64,000 bases of DNA from Oscillospiraceae bacterium (GTDB taxonomy: Bacteria > Bacillota > Clostridia > Oscillospirales > Acutalibacteraceae): positions 1-64,000 of the forward strand of contig SVOQ01000010.1 in assembly GCA_015066345.1 (NCBI GenBank), in the 5' to 3' direction. Shown one piece after another: positions 32,409 through 40,966 of this stretch. The first letter of the stretch is position 1. The number at the start of each line of letters is the position of its first letter. The notes beneath the pieces were generated by a model. It worked only from the letters and a program-made list of their open reading frames with translations. It was not told the DNA's origin and did no database searches. The position numbers and the translations under genes are program-made.

Positions 32409-32427
32409 TTAACGGAGGTTGAAAAAT

Positions 32428-33408
32428 ATGGAACTTGTTAAACGTCCCGATGATATGAAAAGAATAAACAATATTGAACTCGCCAATGCTTTTATTGATG
32501 AACAGGTTGCGGCAGTTCGTTCGCAGGTAGGGGATAAAAAAGTTCTTCTCGCTCTTTCAGGCGGTGTTGATTCCTCTGTTGTTGCGGCTTTGCTTATTAA
32601 AGCAATCGGCAAACAGCTTGTTTGTGTTCACGTAAACCATGGTCTTATGAGAAAAGGCGAAAGCGAACAGGTTATTGAAGTTTTCGGTAAACAGCTTGAT
32701 GCAAATCTTATTTACATTGATGCAACTGACCGTTTTCTTGACAAACTTGTTGATGTTTCTGACCCTGAAAAGAAACGTAAAATTATCGGTAATGAATTTA
32801 TTGAAGTTTTCAACGAAGAAGCACTTAAGCTTGAAGGCATTTCTTTCCTTGCTCAGGGTACAATTTACCCCGATATTCTTGAGAGTGACGGAGTTAAGGC
32901 TCACCACAACGTTGGCGGTCTTCCCGAGGATATGAAGCTTGAGCTTTGCGAACCCGTTGCACTTCTTTATAAAGATGAAGTACGTGTTGTTGGTTCTGCG
33001 CTCGGTCTTCCCGATGAAATGGTTTATCGTCAACCTTTCCCGGGTCCCGGTCTTGGTGTTCGTTGCCTTGGTGCAATTACACGCGACAGACTCCACGCTT
33101 TAAGAGAAGCTGATGCAATTCTTCGTGAAGAATTTGATAATGCCGGTCTTGCAGGTAAAGTATGGCAGTATTTTATTGCCGTTCCCGATGTTAAGAGCGT
33201 TGGTGTAAGAGATTCTAAACGTTATGAGGGTTGGCCCGCAATCATTCGTGCAGTTAACACAACTGACGCAATGAGTGCTACAATTGAAGAAATTCCTTAC
33301 GCACTCCTTCATAAGATTACTGATAGAATTACCCACGAGGTAGACGGCATCAACCGTGTGCTCTACGACCTCACACCGAAGCCCATCGGCACAATTGAGT
33401 GGGAATAA
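32428..33408 (+). CDS. guaA: GMP synthase ATP-pyrophosphatase subunit without glutaminase domain
   Basis: Converts XMP to GMP. 326 aa. ATG 32428 is nine bases after SD ggagg; an upstream TTG (32419) overlaps the SD. The ATP-pyrophosphatase P-loop SGGVDSS is at about residue 45, followed by the C-terminal dimerisation domain ending GTIEWE. Normal bacterial GuaA is about 510-520 aa with an N-terminal class-I glutaminase, absent here and not encoded just upstream. This resembles the archaeal two-subunit form (GuaAa + GuaAb); the amidotransferase may lie elsewhere. The stop codon is within a 16-bp repeat that bounds the downstream island. Confidence 0.9.
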   Translation: MELVKRPDDMKRINNIELANAFIDEQVAAVRSQVGDKKVLLALSGGVDSSVVAALLIKAIGKQLVCVHVNHGLMRKGESEQVIEVFGKQLDANLIYIDATDRFLDKLVDVSDPEKKRKIIGNEFIEVFNEEALKLEGISFLAQGTIYPDILESDGVKAHHNVGGLPEDMKLELCEPVALLYKDEVRVVGSALGLPDEMVYRQPFPGPGLGVRCLGAITRDRLHALREADAILREEFDNAGLAGKVWQYFIAVPDVKSVGVRDSKRYEGWPAIIRAVNTTDAMSATIEEIPYALLHKITDRITHEVDGINRVLYDLTPKPIGTIEWE

Positions 33409-33411
33409 TAC
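33396..33411 (+). repeat. direct repeat, left end of guaA island (attL)
   Basis: tgagtgggaataatac at the guaA stop codon; an identical copy is at 38034-38049. The 3' end of guaA is a well-known integration site for genomic islands and ICEs. Confidence 0.85.
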
Positions 33412-33497
33412 CAAGTTTTTTAAAAATCCTTGATTTATAAGGGATTTAAGAGTTTTTTCACGCTCTGTGACTAAGCTTGTGACTAAATATATATTTG

Positions 33498-33533
33498 AAC
33501 TGACTGATTATAATATCGGTCAGTTCTTTTTTT
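33498..33533 (+). terminator. terminator inside the island, after guaA
   Basis: Stem aactgac / gtcagtt (33498-33504, 33519-33525), AT-rich loop, then c and seven T. It now ends the guaA transcript. Confidence 0.75.
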
Positions 33534-33610
33534 ATCAAAAATTTTTTGTTATATAATAAGATTAATTGTCATCATATTGTGAATGAATGTAGTTTTAACT
33601 CGATTTTTTG

Positions 33611-33639
33611 TTGCAATATTAGTTTTCGATTGTTATAAT
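33611..33639 (+). promoter_or_regulatory. promoter of the island HTH regulator
   Basis: TTGCAA (33611-33616), 17-bp spacer, TATAAT (33634-33639), 34 bp before the ATG. Confidence 0.8.
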
Positions 33640-33673
33640 AGTAAGTGGATTTTTATATTTAAGAGGTGTACTT

Positions 33674-33886
33674 ATGGCTGTTAGTTATAAAAAACTCTGG
33701 AAACTCTTGATTGACCACGATATGAAGAAAAAAGACCTTGCAAAGGTCGCTGATATCAGCAACTACACAATCACAAAAATGAGCAAGGGTGAAAACGTCA
33801 CCGTTGAAACCCTCGGCAAAATCTGCGCTGCATTAAACTGTGGCGTGGATGATATTATGGAATTTGTTCCGGAAGAAAATCAGTGA
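33674..33886 (+). CDS. Cro/C1-type HTH regulator (YozG-like)
   Basis: 70 aa, a single helix-turn-helix domain: KKDLAKVADISNYTITKMSKGENVTVETL is the HTH span (residues about 20-48), split here across the two helices DLAKVADIS and NYTITKMSKG. ATG 33674 has SD aagagg. Small regulators of this type commonly precede DNA methyltransferase genes, where they act as control proteins; the methylase starts 48 bp downstream. Confidence 0.9.
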   Translation: MAVSYKKLWKLLIDHDMKKKDLAKVADISNYTITKMSKGENVTVETLGKICAALNCGVDDIMEFVPEENQ

Positions 33887-33934
33887 ATTCAATAATTAGA
33901 TTTATAGACAGTTTATTCAAACGGAGGCTTTATT

Positions 33935-35971
33935 ATGAGCACATTAGAAATTAAAAGAGACAACGGAAAAATCTTTTGCCCTTTAACAGATTCTTGGCAT
34001 ATTGAAACACCTGAGGAAAAAGTGCGCCAAGAATACATAAAAATTCTTGTAGAGGACTATGGATATTCTCTTGACCAAATGGCACAAGAAATCAAAGTCA
34101 ATAATTCTCAGCGCGGTCAAGGCAAGGCACGTGCAGATATTGTTATTTGGAAATCAAAACAGGATAAAATCGAAAGCAAAGCCGCTTTTATTGTTGTTGA
34201 ATGCAAAGCGGAAAATGTTCGTATTCGTGAAGAGGATTATTATCAAGGATACAACTATGCTTCTTGGGCTGGTGCAAGCTTCTTTGTAACTACTAACGAA
34301 AAAGAAACAAAATACTTTAACGTTGACAAGGATTATCTTCCTAAAGAATTAGTAGAAGTTGTCGCTATTCCTACTGCAGAAGAAGCACTGAATGACAAAA
34401 AAGTAAAAGATATTCTCTCTAAAACGAAAACATTTACAAGAGATGATTTTACAAAGATTCTTCGCACCTGCCATAATATTATTCGTAATAATGATAAGCT
34501 TTCTCCTGAAGCTGCATTTGATGAAATTAGCAAAATTCTCTTTATGAAGATCAAATACGAGCGTGAGCAGCGTGGTGCAAAAGTTTTTACGAAGAATGAA
34601 TTTGTAGAAAAAGAAAAGTGGTTTGAAAAAGAAATTCGTCCCAGTCTGAAAGGAACTCCTAAAGATCTTCCTTATATGCAATTCTTGTTTTACAACACCA
34701 AGGAAGAATTTAAGGATGACCAACTTTTTGAAGAAAACGAAATCATTAAAATCAGACAAAACAGCTTTGAGCAAATCCTCGAAAAGCTCGAAACCTATAA
34801 TCTTTCCGATACACAAGATGACGTTAAAGGTATCGCCTTTGAACAGTTCTTGGGTACTACATTCCGTGGTGAATTAGGACAATACTTTACCCCTCGCACT
34901 ATCGTTGATTTTATGACGCATATTCTTGATCCCAATGAAACGGAAACTGTATGTGATCCTACTTGTGGTAGTGGTGGTTTCTTGATTAAAGCATTCGAAT
35001 ATATGCGTGAAAAAATTGAGGAAGACGTAAAGAAAGCTAAAGCCGAATTGCGTTCTGTTATTGAAGGTGAGAACTACGATTCACTATCCGAAAAGGAACA
35101 GGTAGTTATCAACGAACGCATTGAAGCTATGCAATCCACACTTAACAAAGAACTCGATACCCAAGTAGAGGGTAGCCGTATGTATAATCTGTCCCGTAAT
35201 TGTATTTATGGAACTGATGCTAACCCTCGTATGGCAAGAACCTCAAAAATGAATATGATTATGCACGGTGATGGACACGGAGGCGTTCATCATCACGACG
35301 GCTTGCTGAATGTTAACGGTATTTTTGAAGAGCGTTTTGATGTAATTTTAACGAACCCTCCTTTCGGCGCAAGAATTGATAAATCTCAAAAAATTACCGA
35401 AGCAGATAAATTCACCGATGAAGCTTTGATCGCAAAATATAAAGAAAAATACGGTGAAGCTTATGAAAATGCGCTCAAGCAGGTAAACGATAACATCGGC
35501 AAATCCTTGCTTTCTCTCTACGATGTCGGTTCTATGTCCGGTCTTACTGAAGTGCTCTTTATGGAACGTTGCCTCAGACTGCTTAAAAAAGGTGGCCGTA
35601 TGGGTATGGTTTTGCCTGAAGGTGTTCTTAATACATCCAACCTTCAGAAAATTCGTGAATACTTTGAAGGTAAAGCCAAAATCATTTTGATTTGTTCGAT
35701 CCCTCAAGATGTATTTATCGCTGCCGGTGCCACAGTAAAACCCAGCCTCGTTTTCTTCAAGCGTTTTACTGAAGAGGAAGAACTTCAGTACTTGGGTGCA
35801 AAAACCAAGGCCGAAGGCGAAGTTCGTGAAAAATATATCGAAACCATTAACACAGTAAAAGAAGAAATTGCAAAAGAAAAAATCAAGGCAATACGAATGG
35901 TAGGACTAAAAACGCTTAATGATATTGAAAAAAATATTATTGAAGAAGCAAAACCGCTTATCAAACAATAA
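33935..35971 (+). CDS. type I-like DNA adenine methyltransferase with N-terminal HsdR-type nuclease-like domain
   Basis: 678 aa. Residues about 25-150 resemble the HsdR N-terminal domain with a PD-(D/E)xK pattern (Asp68 in ARADIVIW; Glu89 and Lys91 in VVECKAE). Next comes an HsdM helical domain (about 165-310), then an N6-adenine methyltransferase with SAM motif DPTCGSGGF at 341-349 and catalytic NPPF at 474-477. HsdM proteins with this extra domain are usually followed by hsdS; no specificity subunit or target-recognition domain is visible, nor an HsdR helicase. So it is either a solitary modification enzyme or part of a partly deleted system. ATG 33935 has SD acggagg. Confidence 0.85.
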   Translation: MSTLEIKRDNGKIFCPLTDSWHIETPEEKVRQEYIKILVEDYGYSLDQMAQEIKVNNSQRGQGKARADIVIWKSKQDKIESKAAFIVVECKAENVRIREEDYYQGYNYASWAGASFFVTTNEKETKYFNVDKDYLPKELVEVVAIPTAEEALNDKKVKDILSKTKTFTRDDFTKILRTCHNIIRNNDKLSPEAAFDEISKILFMKIKYEREQRGAKVFTKNEFVEKEKWFEKEIRPSLKGTPKDLPYMQFLFYNTKEEFKDDQLFEENEIIKIRQNSFEQILEKLETYNLSDTQDDVKGIAFEQFLGTTFRGELGQYFTPRTIVDFMTHILDPNETETVCDPTCGSGGFLIKAFEYMREKIEEDVKKAKAELRSVIEGENYDSLSEKEQVVINERIEAMQSTLNKELDTQVEGSRMYNLSRNCIYGTDANPRMARTSKMNMIMHGDGHGGVHHHDGLLNVNGIFEERFDVILTNPPFGARIDKSQKITEADKFTDEALIAKYKEKYGEAYENALKQVNDNIGKSLLSLYDVGSMSGLTEVLFMERCLRLLKKGGRMGMVLPEGVLNTSNLQKIREYFEGKAKIILICSIPQDVFIAAGATVKPSLVFFKRFTEEEELQYLGAKTKAEGEVREKYIETINTVKEEIAKEKIKAIRMVGLKTLNDIEKNIIEEAKPLIKQ

Positions 35972-35976
35972 TCTAT

Positions 35977-36237
35977 GTGTTTGAGGTACAGTCTAAAGGT
36001 TCAATTGATAGCCTTATTCTTAATCTAAAGAAAGCACAAAGCAACGCTGCTGTTCAAGCTGTTGTCGCCGTTGCCGATGAAGAACAACTTGCAAAGATTA
36101 TTCGTGAAAGTACAGGTGTTATTGATGCTAATTCTCTTCGCACATGGGATTCCGAAGATGTTTTAGCTGTCTATGACTCTCTCGTAAGGGCTCATGAATC
36201 AATCAACAAACTTGCTCTTGTCCCTGAAAGCTTTTAA
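35977..36237 (+). CDS. small unknown ORF, possibly a gene remnant
   Basis: 86 codons from GTG 35977, five bases after the methylase stop, with no clear SD. The start (FEVQSKGSIDSLILNLKKAQ) reads like the interior of a larger alpha/beta protein rather than a natural N-terminus. It may be the C-terminal piece of a deleted gene, or a small protein translated by coupling to the methylase. No family recognised. Confidence 0.45.
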   Translation: MFEVQSKGSIDSLILNLKKAQSNAAVQAVVAVADEEQLAKIIRESTGVIDANSLRTWDSEDVLAVYDSLVRAHESINKLALVPESF

Positions 36238-36255
36238 TCAAATGGTTTGTATAGC

Positions 36256-37797
36256 ATGAAGAATCAATCTAAGTTGTTAAATAAATACTGTGATCCGTTT
36301 TCCAACAAAGCAAAAGAATTAGCTTTGAAATTTGACTCAGCAACTATTGATAAAGATACAAAAAAGCTCAAAAGCCTATTAGGTGAAGCTGGAGGCATTT
36401 TGAAACAAGAGAATGATGCTTCTAAGGCTATGATTTATTACTCTTTAGGAACTGCATATGATGATTTGTCAAGGTTAACCGGAAGTCAAACGGAAGAGGC
36501 TTTTCAAAAAGTATTGTATTGTTTTAGAAAAAGTATCAATCTGATTGAACAAGATGAATACACAAAAGATATATATCGCCCATATGTACTTGGTTTAAAA
36601 GAGATTCTTTATACCAACTACGCAAATGCGTTAGACCATTGTGGCAGAAAAATTGCGGCAATTGAACAGTATAAAAAGGCTTTATCTATCCATATGGACT
36701 TCGGAATGGCCCTTGGGAACTTAGGGCGAGTTTATCAACATTATGGTATGCTTGAGTACGATGATAATCATAGGGACTTGTTTCATTATTTTGCATATCA
36801 TTACTTAAACAATGCAATTAATTGCAATGATCCTAATACTTATGATGCTGCTAAAAAGTGTTTTAAGGATACCATTGATGTGTATGCACCTGAGTATGTT
36901 GAAAATGTACTTACCTCGGATTTATCTTTTAACCAATATGTATATGATATCCCCGAAGAACTCGCCTATAGAGAATGGTGTTTGCATAATGGTTTGTTTT
37001 TAAATACATTGAATGATTTACCCGTTGCTGAACTTTGTTTTGCGAGAGATGTCATACAGCTTCCAAGTATGATTGTTGGCATACATGATAAACCGATATT
37101 TCATGGAATGTTTAGTCAGCTTAAGCAAGAATATGTTTATGCACGATATCTTTATTACGATACTCTTAACTCGTGTGATGAACCTCACTTTGCTGATAAG
37201 GAAACATATATAAAATCGCATACCGATTATGCTCAATATTCAATTCGGTTGGAAAAATTAAAAACATCATTCAAAACACTTTACGGTATGTTTGATAAAA
37301 TTGCCTTTTTCCTTGAACATTATTTTGATTTGGGAATAAAGGAGCGAGATATTAATTTTCGTTCGATTTGGCAAGATTCTGCCGGATTCGGAAAGAAGAA
37401 ATATCAATACAAGCAAAAACTTGATCCGGATAAAAATTTTGCTTTGTCGTCGTTATATTGGATTAGTAAAGATTTCTTCGAGAAGTTTGAAGATTCTCCA
37501 AATCCCGAGTTAAAAAGAATCAAAGATATTCGTGATGCATTAGAGCACAAGTATGTAAAAATTAATGATTATATTTTTAACGATAGAATTGAAGATTATG
37601 GCGATGGATTAGCTTTATACGTATCTGAAAAAGAAATGTATGATGCAACATTTATGTTGCTGAAAATTCTTCGTGAAGCAATAATAAATTTATCTTTATG
37701 CGTGAATATAGCTGAAGAACCAAAAAGAGAGGCATCAAAAGATAAACTAATAATGCCTATTAGTCTTATGGATTATGAAGATGAGTGGAAAATATAG
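36256..37797 (+). CDS. TPR protein with C-terminal LA2681-like HEPN domain
   Basis: 513 aa. The N-terminal two-fifths contain tetratricopeptide-like helices (AMIYYSLGTAYDDLSR; TNYANALDHCGRKIAAIEQY; MALGNLGRVYQHYG). The C-terminal part (about 280-490) matches the LA2681-type HEPN domain: LKQEYVYARYLYYDTL, LYGMFDKIAFFLEHYFDLGI and the RNase motif RDALEH (Arg426, His431; Rx4H). HEPN proteins of this kind are thought to be RNases in defence or toxin systems. The start is uncertain: ATG 36256 or TTG 36247, neither with a clear SD. Base use is more AT-rich than the housekeeping genes. Association with the methylase suggests a joint defence function (inference). Confidence 0.75.
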   Translation: MKNQSKLLNKYCDPFSNKAKELALKFDSATIDKDTKKLKSLLGEAGGILKQENDASKAMIYYSLGTAYDDLSRLTGSQTEEAFQKVLYCFRKSINLIEQDEYTKDIYRPYVLGLKEILYTNYANALDHCGRKIAAIEQYKKALSIHMDFGMALGNLGRVYQHYGMLEYDDNHRDLFHYFAYHYLNNAINCNDPNTYDAAKKCFKDTIDVYAPEYVENVLTSDLSFNQYVYDIPEELAYREWCLHNGLFLNTLNDLPVAELCFARDVIQLPSMIVGIHDKPIFHGMFSQLKQEYVYARYLYYDTLNSCDEPHFADKETYIKSHTDYAQYSIRLEKLKTSFKTLYGMFDKIAFFLEHYFDLGIKERDINFRSIWQDSAGFGKKKYQYKQKLDPDKNFALSSLYWISKDFFEKFEDSPNPELKRIKDIRDALEHKYVKINDYIFNDRIEDYGDGLALYVSEKEMYDATFMLLKILREAIINLSLCVNIAEEPKREASKDKLIMPISLMDYEDEWKI

Positions 37798-38033
37798 TCA
37801 ACAAAACTTTATCGCTTTAAAGTATTGACATATACTTTTTATGTGCTACAAATCATTTGCAATTGTAAATGAGGAGTGTTTCAGGTGGGTGTGAATCCGC
37901 CGGGGTTAGTGTTTTTGTTCCGTGATACTGTGATTGATACGGTTTTTGGGCAAAAAACTTAAAAACATCAGTTTTGACCCCTCAGAAACCCTTATTTTAC
38001 ATGCCTTTTCACAAGTTAAATATCAAAACTAAG

Positions 38034-38049
38034 TGAGTGGGAATAATAC
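38034..38049 (+). repeat. direct repeat, right end of guaA island (attR)
   Basis: tgagtgggaataatac, identical over 16 bp to the copy at the guaA stop codon. Confidence 0.85.
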
Positions 38050-38130
38050 AAATTATTCTTGCAAAACTCATTTATTCTCAAAAGGGTAATTTAGTTTATC
38101 CTTTCCTGAATTTTGAATAACAAAGATTTA

Positions 38131-38167
38131 GACACTGTACATCATCGGATGTGCAGTGTCTTTTTTT
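38131..38167 (+). terminator. rho-independent terminator, probably the ancestral guaA terminator
   Basis: Stem gacactg.acatc / gatgt.cagtgtc with loop atcg (38131-38160), followed by seven T. Confidence 0.85.
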
Positions 38168-38284
38168 CTTTATGTTTTTATAAAGGGTGTTTAGCGTATA
38201 AAAAAGGTGAATAAGAGTCAAAAAATATTTTGTATATATTTTCACTAATATTTTATATATTTTTCACTAATTTTTTATAAATTA

Positions 38285-38313
38285 TTGATACTCGGAAAAT
38301 TTTTTGTTATAGT
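38285..38313 (+). promoter_or_regulatory. promoter of the GH3 gene
   Basis: TTGATA (38285-38290), 17-bp spacer, TATAGT (38308-38313), 37 bp before the ATG. Confidence 0.7.
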
Positions 38314-38350
38314 GTAACTATAGCAAATATATAAAAAGGGGAGATAACAA

Positions 38351-40966
38351 ATGAAAAAATCCAAAAAGTTAATTGCAGTGATACTCACAATTACATTAAT
38401 TTTTACTTGTTTGGTAGTTCCTGCAGTTGCAGTAAGCGGAAATATTCCCGATGATGTCGTTGCGATGTCAAGTCAGGTTGCTGTTGAAATTGAGCAAGAG
38501 GGTATAGTTCTGCTTAAAAATGTTGATGATACCTTACCGCTGGCCGGTAAGAAAGTAAATGTATTTGGTGCAGCTTCCGTTGTTCCTCTTTTAGGTGGCG
38601 CCGGTTCAGGTGCTATAACCACTCACGACCCCGTATATTTTTATGAGGCTCTTGATGAAGCCGGTATATCATATAACAGAGAACTTATGGAGCTATATGA
38701 TGAATATTGCAGTTCAGATGAGATTCTTAAAACCGGAAGTACAGTTTTCAACAACCTTCTTCAGCTTCTTCTTGCAAAAAGTTCTCTTAACGAAATGAAT
38801 CCCGATAATCTTACCGATGACGTAATGGCACGTGCTAAGGCTTTTTCAGATACTGCCATAATTGTTATAGGCAGAACAAGTGCCGAAAACACTGACCTTA
38901 CGCCCGAGATACTTAGTTTAAGCGAAACTGAAAGATCAATGGTGGATAAGGTTGCTTCAACATTCTCGGATGTTATAGTGCTTTTCAATATAGGTAACGT
39001 GATGGAGATGGGCTTCCTTGATGAGTATGAGAGCATTAAGGCTGCTGCTATTTTCTGGATTCCCGGTGAATTTGGTATGAGAGCGGTTGGGCAGATGCTC
39101 AATGGTGAAGTTAATCCATCGGGCAGACTTGCGGACACTATTGCTTATAGCATTTATGACCATCCTTCAACACAGAATTTCGGAACTTATAAATATGAGG
39201 GTGGAGAATACTATGTTGAGTATCAGGAAGGTATCTACGTAGGTTACCGTTATTTTGAAACATTTGCTAAGTATAAAGTTCAGTATCCATTCGGATACGG
39301 TCTTTCATATACAAGCTTTACGAAAGAAATTGTATCAAAAAGTACCGATAATGGTAAAATACGTGTTGATGTAAAGGTCACTAACACCGGTGACGTCAGT
39401 GGTAAGGATGCTGTACAGATTTATTACAGTGCCCCTTACACAGGTGAAATTGAGAAAAGTGCAATAGCCTTGGGTGGTTATGAAAAATCAAAGCTCCTTG
39501 CCCCAAATGAAAGCGAAATTGTAACTGTTGAATTTGACATAAATGGTATGGCTTCTTACGACAGGGTTAATAATGAGGCGTGGGTTCTTGAAAAAGGCGA
39601 TTACCGAATAATTCTTGGCGAGAATGTTCGTGAGCATATCGATACATTTACAGTTACTTTAGATGAAGAGATTGTTGTTAAAACTGATAATAATTCGGGA
39701 AATGAAATTAAAAATCTTTTTGACGATGTATATTCAGATTTTACAATTCTTTCAAGAACGGATGCAGTAGCAACATATCCGGCCGCAAGACAGCTTGTTA
39801 AGACTGATGCTATTAAAAAGGCAGATAAGTATCCTGCTCCCACCAAAGAAGGCACTGCTCCTAAAATGGGAGTAACTTATAGCACAGGGGTAATCACTCT
39901 TCAAGATGTTTACGAAAATGAAGAGCTTATGGATGCTTTCTTAGACCAGCTCACCCTTGATGAAATGATTAACCTTGTTGCTCGTGGAGGCTATCAAACG
40001 CACGGTATTGAAAGACTTGGTGTTCCTCAGACATGGGATAATGATGGACCCTCCAGTATAAAAGGTGCCCATGGTATTGCGTATACTGATAGTGGTACTG
40101 CATATCCTTGTGCTACCGCAATTGCTTGTACGTGGAATAAAGAGCTTGCAAACAGAATGGGTGACAGTGTAGGTATTGAAGCAAGAAGCATTGGTACTGA
40201 TATCTGGTATGCACCCGGTGTAAATATCCACAGAAATCCCATGGGTGGCAGAAACTTTGAGTATTTCTCAGAAGACCCGGTACTTTCAGGTACAATGGGT
40301 GCCGAAATTATTAATGGTGCATGGGGTCAGGGGCTTGTTACAACTATTAAACATTTTGTTATGAATGATCAGGAATCCCAACGTGCCGGTGTGTTTACTT
40401 GGGCAGATGAACAGACAATGCGTGAAATCTATCTTAAAGCATTTGAAATTCCTGTGAAAAAATCTGCTTGTCACGGTGTTATGTCCGCTTATAACAGAAT
40501 TGGTACTGATTGGTGCGGTGCAAGTTCAGAACTTCTGAAAGATTTGCTTCGCAAAGAATGGGGATATGAAGGTTATGTTGTTTCCGACTATTCTAATAAC
40601 TTTGTCGGTAATGGTTATATGAGCCCTGTACTGGCAATTTATAATGGTAATGATACAATGCTAACAGGCGTTTGGTTTCTTAATATGCCATCACACGTTG
40701 CTGCCATCGAAATTCAGTATTATGCAGACCCAATAGGTTTTGGTACGGCAATGCGCGAAGCTTGTAGGAACATTATGAACGCAAAAATGAAAACTAAGGC
40801 TTTCCTTGAACCCGGTTATTTTGTTGATAATGAGGACCTTGTTATTAGTGAGGAAGATTGGGATTTCACTGAACCGTATATTGTTTCCTATCTTAACCTT
40901 GAATTTACAAACTTTGTTAATCAAATCGTTATGATATTCAGAAAGTTTATTGATTGGCACTTCTGA
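38351..40966 (+). CDS. exported GH3 beta-glucosidase-like enzyme, domain-permuted
   Basis: 871 aa with an N-terminal signal-like segment (KKLIAVILTITLIF, then AVAVSG). The usual GH3 order is reversed: the alpha/beta C-domain comes first (about 45-280: GIVLLKN, VFGAASV, IVIGRTSAEN), then a fibronectin-III-like domain (about 330-430), then the TIM-barrel domain (about 530-840) with GPSSIKGAHG, KHFVMNDQE and the nucleophile Asp in YVVSDYSNN. Such permuted enzymes are known from Ruminococcus and Butyrivibrio. No cellulosomal dockerin or sortase motif is visible; the C-terminus is an amphipathic helix. Cleaves beta-glucosides by family; the exact substrate is unknown. Confidence 0.88.
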   Translation: MKKSKKLIAVILTITLIFTCLVVPAVAVSGNIPDDVVAMSSQVAVEIEQEGIVLLKNVDDTLPLAGKKVNVFGAASVVPLLGGAGSGAITTHDPVYFYEALDEAGISYNRELMELYDEYCSSDEILKTGSTVFNNLLQLLLAKSSLNEMNPDNLTDDVMARAKAFSDTAIIVIGRTSAENTDLTPEILSLSETERSMVDKVASTFSDVIVLFNIGNVMEMGFLDEYESIKAAAIFWIPGEFGMRAVGQMLNGEVNPSGRLADTIAYSIYDHPSTQNFGTYKYEGGEYYVEYQEGIYVGYRYFETFAKYKVQYPFGYGLSYTSFTKEIVSKSTDNGKIRVDVKVTNTGDVSGKDAVQIYYSAPYTGEIEKSAIALGGYEKSKLLAPNESEIVTVEFDINGMASYDRVNNEAWVLEKGDYRIILGENVREHIDTFTVTLDEEIVVKTDNNSGNEIKNLFDDVYSDFTILSRTDAVATYPAARQLVKTDAIKKADKYPAPTKEGTAPKMGVTYSTGVITLQDVYENEELMDAFLDQLTLDEMINLVARGGYQTHGIERLGVPQTWDNDGPSSIKGAHGIAYTDSGTAYPCATAIACTWNKELANRMGDSVGIEARSIGTDIWYAPGVNIHRNPMGGRNFEYFSEDPVLSGTMGAEIINGAWGQGLVTTIKHFVMNDQESQRAGVFTWADEQTMREIYLKAFEIPVKKSACHGVMSAYNRIGTDWCGASSELLKDLLRKEWGYEGYVVSDYSNNFVGNGYMSPVLAIYNGNDTMLTGVWFLNMPSHVAAIEIQYYADPIGFGTAMREACRNIMNAKMKTKAFLEPGYFVDNEDLVISEEDWDFTEPYIVSYLNLEFTNFVNQIVMIFRKFIDWHF

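Follow-up and report, generated by a model that had tools for sequence, protein, structure and literature searches.

A probable cis-mobilizable remnant at the guaA 3ʹ end of an Oscillospiraceae genome, with a shortened methylase gene and a full-length HEPN gene

The first 64,000 nucleotides of contig SVOQ01000010.1 from an Oscillospiraceae bacterium (assembly GCA_015066345.1), hereafter the window, carry at the 3ʹ end of guaA an island of about 4.6 kb that begins and ends with the same 16-bp word. Between the two copies stand a regulator, a methyltransferase gene fused to a nuclease-like domain, and a gene for a protein with tetratricopeptide repeats (TPRs) and an LA2681-type HEPN domain. The locus raises the question of what such a set is: a compact defence system, as a sequence-only reading of this DNA had proposed, a cassette moved by a helper, or what is left of a larger element. 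It is highly probable, judging from the island's anatomy and relatives, that it is a cis-mobilizable element (CIME): a MobV-type integrative and mobilizable element (IME) specific for guaA, reduced to a remnant with neither integrase nor relaxase. Insertion is well supported and decay likely, and a new compact defence system is not supported. The CIME is an already known kind of element; this member is new.

Insertion at the 3ʹ end of guaA

The source genome comprises 2,334,147 bases in 48 contigs and is 98% complete. The core repeat, TGAGTGGGAATAATAC, spans the guaA stop codon and recurs 4,638 bp downstream, as the sequence-only reading had noted. When up to two mismatches are allowed, the window holds two matches, compared with a mean of 0.06 in shuffles, and in the whole genome the repeat occurs twice on the forward strand and never on the reverse; two copies in 2.33 Mb are not the frequent chance word that the earlier reading had named as a danger. 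The pair alone is nonetheless weak evidence, because the window contains three exact direct repeats of at least 16 nt spaced by no more than 10 kb, the core pair among them. Insertion is demonstrated instead by empty sites in relatives.

Queried with the guaA protein, 21 of the 22 genomes of the genus, the source genome included, gave matches; some of these are weak and fall on other PP-loop genes. In 17 congeners, 19 regions were read downstream of guaA, over 75 to 17,695 bp; in 7 of the 19 regions less than 2.6 kb was available, and islands farther on could escape notice there. The window's flanks, joined across the core, align through it with the corresponding DNA of G008 (307 of 353 columns) and G014 (310 of 372), and the 300 bp to the right of the island match in these two congeners only. 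The search for an empty guaA site that the earlier reading had proposed thus found one in 2 of 19 regions. In G014 (L050, 3476-7924), Tn7-like genes (Mu-transpos_C, TniB, TniQ/TnsD) lie about 0.9 kb downstream of the empty site.

The 3ʹ end of guaA is an integration hotspot in the genus. A PF00589 tyrosine integrase directly follows guaA in 5 of the 19 regions (G001, G011, G016, G020, and G021, in the last on one of two contigs), which bears out the claim that this gene end serves as an attachment site. A hotspot at this gene end is also reported in the accessible parts of PMC5704250 and PMC12479173, and tables of the former list ATE-1, a MobV IME with a tyrosine integrase, at the guaA 3ʹ end. 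In G001, three core copies bound a 3.9-kb integrase element and then a 767-bp segment (L052, second to third copy), which is integrase-less and holds one 172-aa open reading frame (ORF) with no Pfam match. G011 carries an integrase element of 6.5 kb at guaA; two guaA-like genes occur in this one region (L058, 2431 and 5038), and the same core word ends both. The element in G020 encodes an integrase with Arm-DNA-bind_4, a Mob_Pre relaxase, and TnpV, and it also carries a penicillinase-repressor gene and a large gene, by eye a membrane sensor (L059, 8323-11336). In a tblastn search of the 19 regions, the island's cargo proteins had no match except one 46% match of the helix-turn-helix (HTH) regulator in G021.

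Table 1. Features of the guaA island, in window coordinates
Feature	Position	Strand	Remark
guaA (GMP synthase ATP-PPase subunit), target gene	32419..33408	+	reading frame intact
Left core repeat (attL core)	33396..33411	+	guaA stop inside
Left end	33412..33585	.	tandem TGTGACTAAGCT/TGTGACTAAATA at 33466-33489 resembling arm sites (putative arm role)
Terminator-like hairpin in left end	33497-33526		
HTH leader module	33586..33879	+	DNA 92.9% identical in G1421 (another genus)
HTH_26 (Xre/Cro) regulator	33674..33886	+	70 aa
Shortened restriction-modification M subunit	33935..35971	+	HSDR_N_2 nuclease-like domain + N6_Mtase, 678 aa
Deletion junction, M gene/nuclease-gene tail	35966..35971	.	
Nuclease-like gene remnant	35971..36237	+	last 88 codons + stop, from 359-aa gene
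TPR-HEPN_LA2681 protein	36256..37797	+	513 aa, full length, R426-x4-H431
Right end, noncoding	37805..38048	.	shared up to the core with two other genera (95.9% and 92.7% identity)
Right core repeat (attR core)	38034..38049	+	
Host right flank	38050..38177	.	adjoins guaA in G008 and G014

Shared modules and missing mobility genes

Profile searches of the island's four main ORFs found neither an integrase, as the earlier reading had noted, nor a relaxase or transfer gene; overlapping ORFs in other frames were listed without profile search. No Rfam match at E ≤ 1 was found over 33300-38400. In a six-frame PF00589 search of the source genome the single match lies outside the island (C8:78330), 45 kb from guaA, and a corresponding gene lies 24-29 kb from guaA in G001, G009, G012, and G019. 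Because of its distance from guaA here and in these four congeners, this lone protein was read as a chromosomal Xer, and it was rejected as a helper integrase of the genome's own.

Parts of the island recur in other genera. Of the 348 other family genomes, two matched the island's right-end DNA at E ≤ 1e-8, G1421 (95.9%) and G1274 (92.7%), in both from just after the last cargo gene to the core, and the flank beyond differs. Three further matches at E ≤ 0.001 besides that of G1274, of 26-40 bp, were taken as chance; plasmids and phages yielded no right-end DNA, and viral contigs no exact right-end words. The G1421 contig reads, in order, a DUF5906-like replication protein (27.4 bits against a cut-off of 27.6, its gene truncated where the contig begins), Mob_Pre, TnpV, HTH, cargo, right end, and core, the core standing at the same place as in the window. 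Its HTH module corresponds to the window's at 92.9%, including 88 bp before the start codon; 67 of 70 protein positions agree, and the homology stops at the HTH gene end. Between this module and the right end lies a Type IIG restriction-modification (R-M) set, a cargo unrelated to that of the window's island, and among five cargo proteins PADLOC gave two matches, one to a Type II MTase-labelled model (424 bits) and one to a Type IIG REase-MTase model (1119 bits). G1274 joins the window's right end to other cargo; about 320 bp past the right core of its element (L144) is another GAGTGGGAATGA, a candidate gene-less micro-CIME.

Two separated modules thus link the island to an element with mobilization genes, genes that the island itself lacks; this combination fits the definition of a CIME (available sections of PMC7563491). 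According to the accessible parts of PMC5704250 and PMC7563491, the CIMEs of Streptococcus salivarius measure 1.2-13 kb and keep attL, attR, and cargo, having lost the genes for integration and transfer. The island has the same anatomy; unlike them, it is single rather than in tandem with an integrative and conjugative element (ICE) or an IME, and its ends look unmatched. With MobV IMEs including ATE-1 it has in common the site, the integrase class of its neighbours, and the Mob_Pre of G020 and G1421, but it has no integrase or relaxase of its own.

A history may be proposed from these relationships. A tyrosine integrase would have brought about recombination between the core of the element and the 3ʹ end of guaA, restoring the last guaA codons, as the anatomy and the relatives suggest. 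Loss of an int-rep-mob block would have joined the left end to the HTH module, somewhere between about 33527 and 33586; homology bounds this position, and the deletion event itself is presumed. The two modules matching the Mob_Pre/TnpV-bearing element would be compatible with derivation from an IME, of which neither the left junction nor the ancestor was seen. Remobilization would follow only if an incoming guaA-specific element integrated alongside and carried the island with it.

The two ends may not have the same origin. Ends were compared by the best 12-base word that an element's two ends share, direct or inverted, against 100 mononucleotide shuffles. The G001 integrase element reached 12/12 direct (attained by 1 of 100 shuffles; inverted 11, by 15) and the G011 element 12/12 inverted (1 of 100; direct 11, by 9). 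The best word of the window's ends was 10/12 in both orientations, equalled by 69 of 100 shuffles, and again 10/12 with a longer right end (171 of 200 shuffles). For the 767-bp segment of G001 the direct value was 10 (82 of 100), and no word rose above chance. A likeness noticed by eye between the window's right end and the left end of G016 (10/12, 39 of 100) was not above chance and was not used. The arm-pair pattern was found at guaA in 1 of 394 genomes of the order, the window itself. Since the window's ends share no arm word and the two positive controls do, a different element, accreted in tandem, may have contributed the left end, one deletion removing the first element's attR together with the second's attL-int-mob; the chances of this are about even.

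A truncated methylase beside an intact HEPN gene

Profiles confirm the regulator, HsdR-N/methyltransferase, and TPR-LA2681 HEPN genes that had been read between the repeats. The M ORF matches the PADLOC MTase_I model PDLC03018 with 1151 bits; its best NCBIfam match, the MADS MAD2 methyltransferase NF047738, scores 302.8 bits, far below the cut-off of 720. It is open, and in an alignment it retains methylase motifs and a D..ECK nuclease-like motif. At 678 aa, however, it is shorter than its five nearest relatives (750-805 aa), with about 115 C-terminal residues missing, and each of those five is followed by a gene resembling that of a specificity (S) subunit. Eight M relatives were viewed in their surroundings (6 of 14 viral loci and 2 of 260 plasmid records): an S-like gene follows in six, the contig ends in L102, and an Acidithiobacillus plasmid has no annotated S. 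No specificity subunit is present among the island's ORFs. Across the class, M was found at E ≤ 1e-80 in 1 of 391 genomes, that of the window itself.

Behind M lies an ORF absent from the sequence-only reading (35977-36237, 86 codons), the 3ʹ remnant of a larger nuclease-like gene. Its protein is 92% identical to WP_320690430, a 359-aa Monoglobus plasmid protein that has no Pfam match and shows, by eye, a helix-hairpin-helix motif and a D...ExQ nuclease-like pattern; an ATP-synthase match of the tail was dropped as under the cut-off. Homology to M reaches the last codons, at about 35965-35968, and homology to the Monoglobus protein starts at 35971, so that the two meet within about 6 bp. Because homology to two intact longer genes meets at this junction and S is missing, a deletion is read to have taken about 115 residues of M, the S gene, and residues 1 to 271 of the nuclease-like protein. 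On these grounds M and the nuclease tail were judged not to be a programmed fusion. The R-M set that remains would be expected neither to modify nor to cut at a defined site. Like Type I / BcgI-like R-M systems, which combine an M subunit fused to a nuclease-like domain with a separate S, the island has HSDR_N_2 with N6_Mtase; it differs in its lost S and shortened M. The likeness to BcgI is presumed. Two loci, L101 (11589-13600) and L109 (11758-13922), have an ATPase gene and a small gene behind M and S genes of this family; the added genes of L101 match the Septu PtuA and PtuB models, a pairing of R-M with Septu, and those of L109 were judged by blastp and eye.

The TPR-HEPN protein matches PF18733 (HEPN_LA2681) with 201.1 bits against a cut-off of 27. 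It is full length compared with three relatives (55-70% identity), and R426 and H431 of the Rx4H motif are invariant in all four sequences. Profile search found TPR and HEPN only, with no ABC ATPase domain, and no PADLOC model matched. In the accessible parts of Anantharaman 2013 (PMC3710099), the LA2681 HEPN family has a conserved active site and a TPR fusion, and its table row notes TPR fusion and TPR operon only; the island protein is likewise TPR-fused with the active site and differs in its R-M gene neighbours. The literature searched, as far as its text was available, contained no experimental test of this family. By analogy with its family, the protein is most likely a TPR-gated RNase that would stop growth or kill the cell upon infection, and it is plausibly the island's only working defence gene.

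The gene is rare: it occurs in 4 of 398 genomes of the phylum (its own included), in 14 of 72,556 plasmid records, and in none of 98 other genomes; none was confirmed in viral contigs, and one unannotated phage record, its genes unread, matches at 55%. Among 14 other neighbourhoods viewed, 8 of them from the 14 plasmids, upstream of HEPN there are an M gene and a gene read as S in L003, and genes taken for type III mod and res (by reading, without profiles) in G1120. In the rest the neighbours are annotated helicases, an AbiEii-family gene, or a protein read as SIR2-like, or no such gene is nearby. HEPN_LA2681 gives the impression of an itinerant accessory gene for defence that is sometimes added to R-M sets and is no fixed partner of this M.

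The HTH protein is probably a controller of the cargo, since its relatives often lead R-M-like operons. In viral contigs 42 such relatives were found, 40 of them with a downstream ORF within the limits used; by a crude pattern, the first downstream ORF has methylase motifs in 7 of the 40, and others look by eye like R-M or defence operons.

Weighing the readings

That regulator, nuclease-methylase, and HEPN form a working compact system, with HEPN as a PrrC-like second line, is very unlikely. The M ORF is open with its methylase and nuclease-like motifs, HEPN is intact and also follows R-M-like genes in L003 and G1120, and HTH relatives often head R-M-like operons; yet S is missing and M is about 115 residues short, the five nearest relatives keep both, most of the HEPN relatives viewed adjoin other genes of many kinds, and the ABC ATPase domain of a PrrC-like R-M guard is lacking. 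A somewhat less improbable, though still unlikely, reading is a functional integrase-less cassette whose live ends are moved in trans, satellite-like, by the integrase of a guaA-type IME. The core repeats are perfect, congeners have guaA-type integrases, the right end is common to three genera, and the 767-bp segment of G001, one ORF without an integrase, follows an integrase element and is bounded by the same core word. However, no guaA-type integrase was found in the source genome, complete to 98%; the window's ends share just 10/12 where those of G001 and G011 share 12/12; and the ends of the 767-bp segment likewise lack a common word. The earlier choice between decay and a helper has thus shifted toward decay, the helper being weakened by the Xer-like nature of the sole PF00589 protein and by ends without a common arm word. 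Host genes in place with a repeat arisen by chance are hardly credible: three repeat pairs of this kind do occur in the window, but G008 and G014 have empty sites and elements of other genera share the ends.

The CIME reading has its own difficulties. The empty site appears in just 2 of 19 congener regions, and 12 have neither that flank nor an adjoining integrase. A complete IME with both this M and HEPN was not found, nor was the left end of the G1421 element when both ends (9 kb) of all 28 contigs were examined: these contained no exact core word and no match to the window's guaA, and five guaA-type integrases matched weakly on C16 and C25, where the 309-aa integrase of C25 does not adjoin a core. 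Left-end DNA gave matches of at most 72 bp in 13 of 149 other family genomes, taken as chance, and no ancestor with this left end. The tandem-fusion step leans on a negative and weak arm test. Moreover, L003, a more distant M relative, has 602 aa and no C-terminal region, which makes the need for that region uncertain.

As a CIME, the island is an ordinary kind of element with an unusually clear history through its empty sites and sister elements, and it offers a worked example of a defence-carrying IME that may be decaying in place, leaving a stand-alone HEPN gene. It also cautions that "methylase + HEPN" pairs spotted by eye may be deletion products. The sister elements point to a slot for cargo in which different genera seem to exchange R-M sets. 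A tentative and doubtful extension is a guaA-type IME family in at least two genera, with a fixed slot from the HTH leader to the 244-bp noncoding right end (the latter present in a third genus as well), recombination in both anchors exchanging entire restriction or abortive-infection modules, and a structured right-end RNA running in the circle across attP to the left-end terminator. The antiviral hotspots of P2 and P4, as the available parts of PMC9122126 describe them, similarly place a small slot of changing defence genes between fixed element parts; in the island this frame consists of an HTH module on one side and a noncoding element end on the other.

Some minor features of the right end (37805-38048) may be added. 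Nested hairpins are predicted there (z -2.26, with 3 of 200 shuffles as good), and a TTGACA..TACAAA pair looks promoter-like by eye. In a circular form, reading from this end would pass through attP and reach the terminator-like hairpin (33497-33526).

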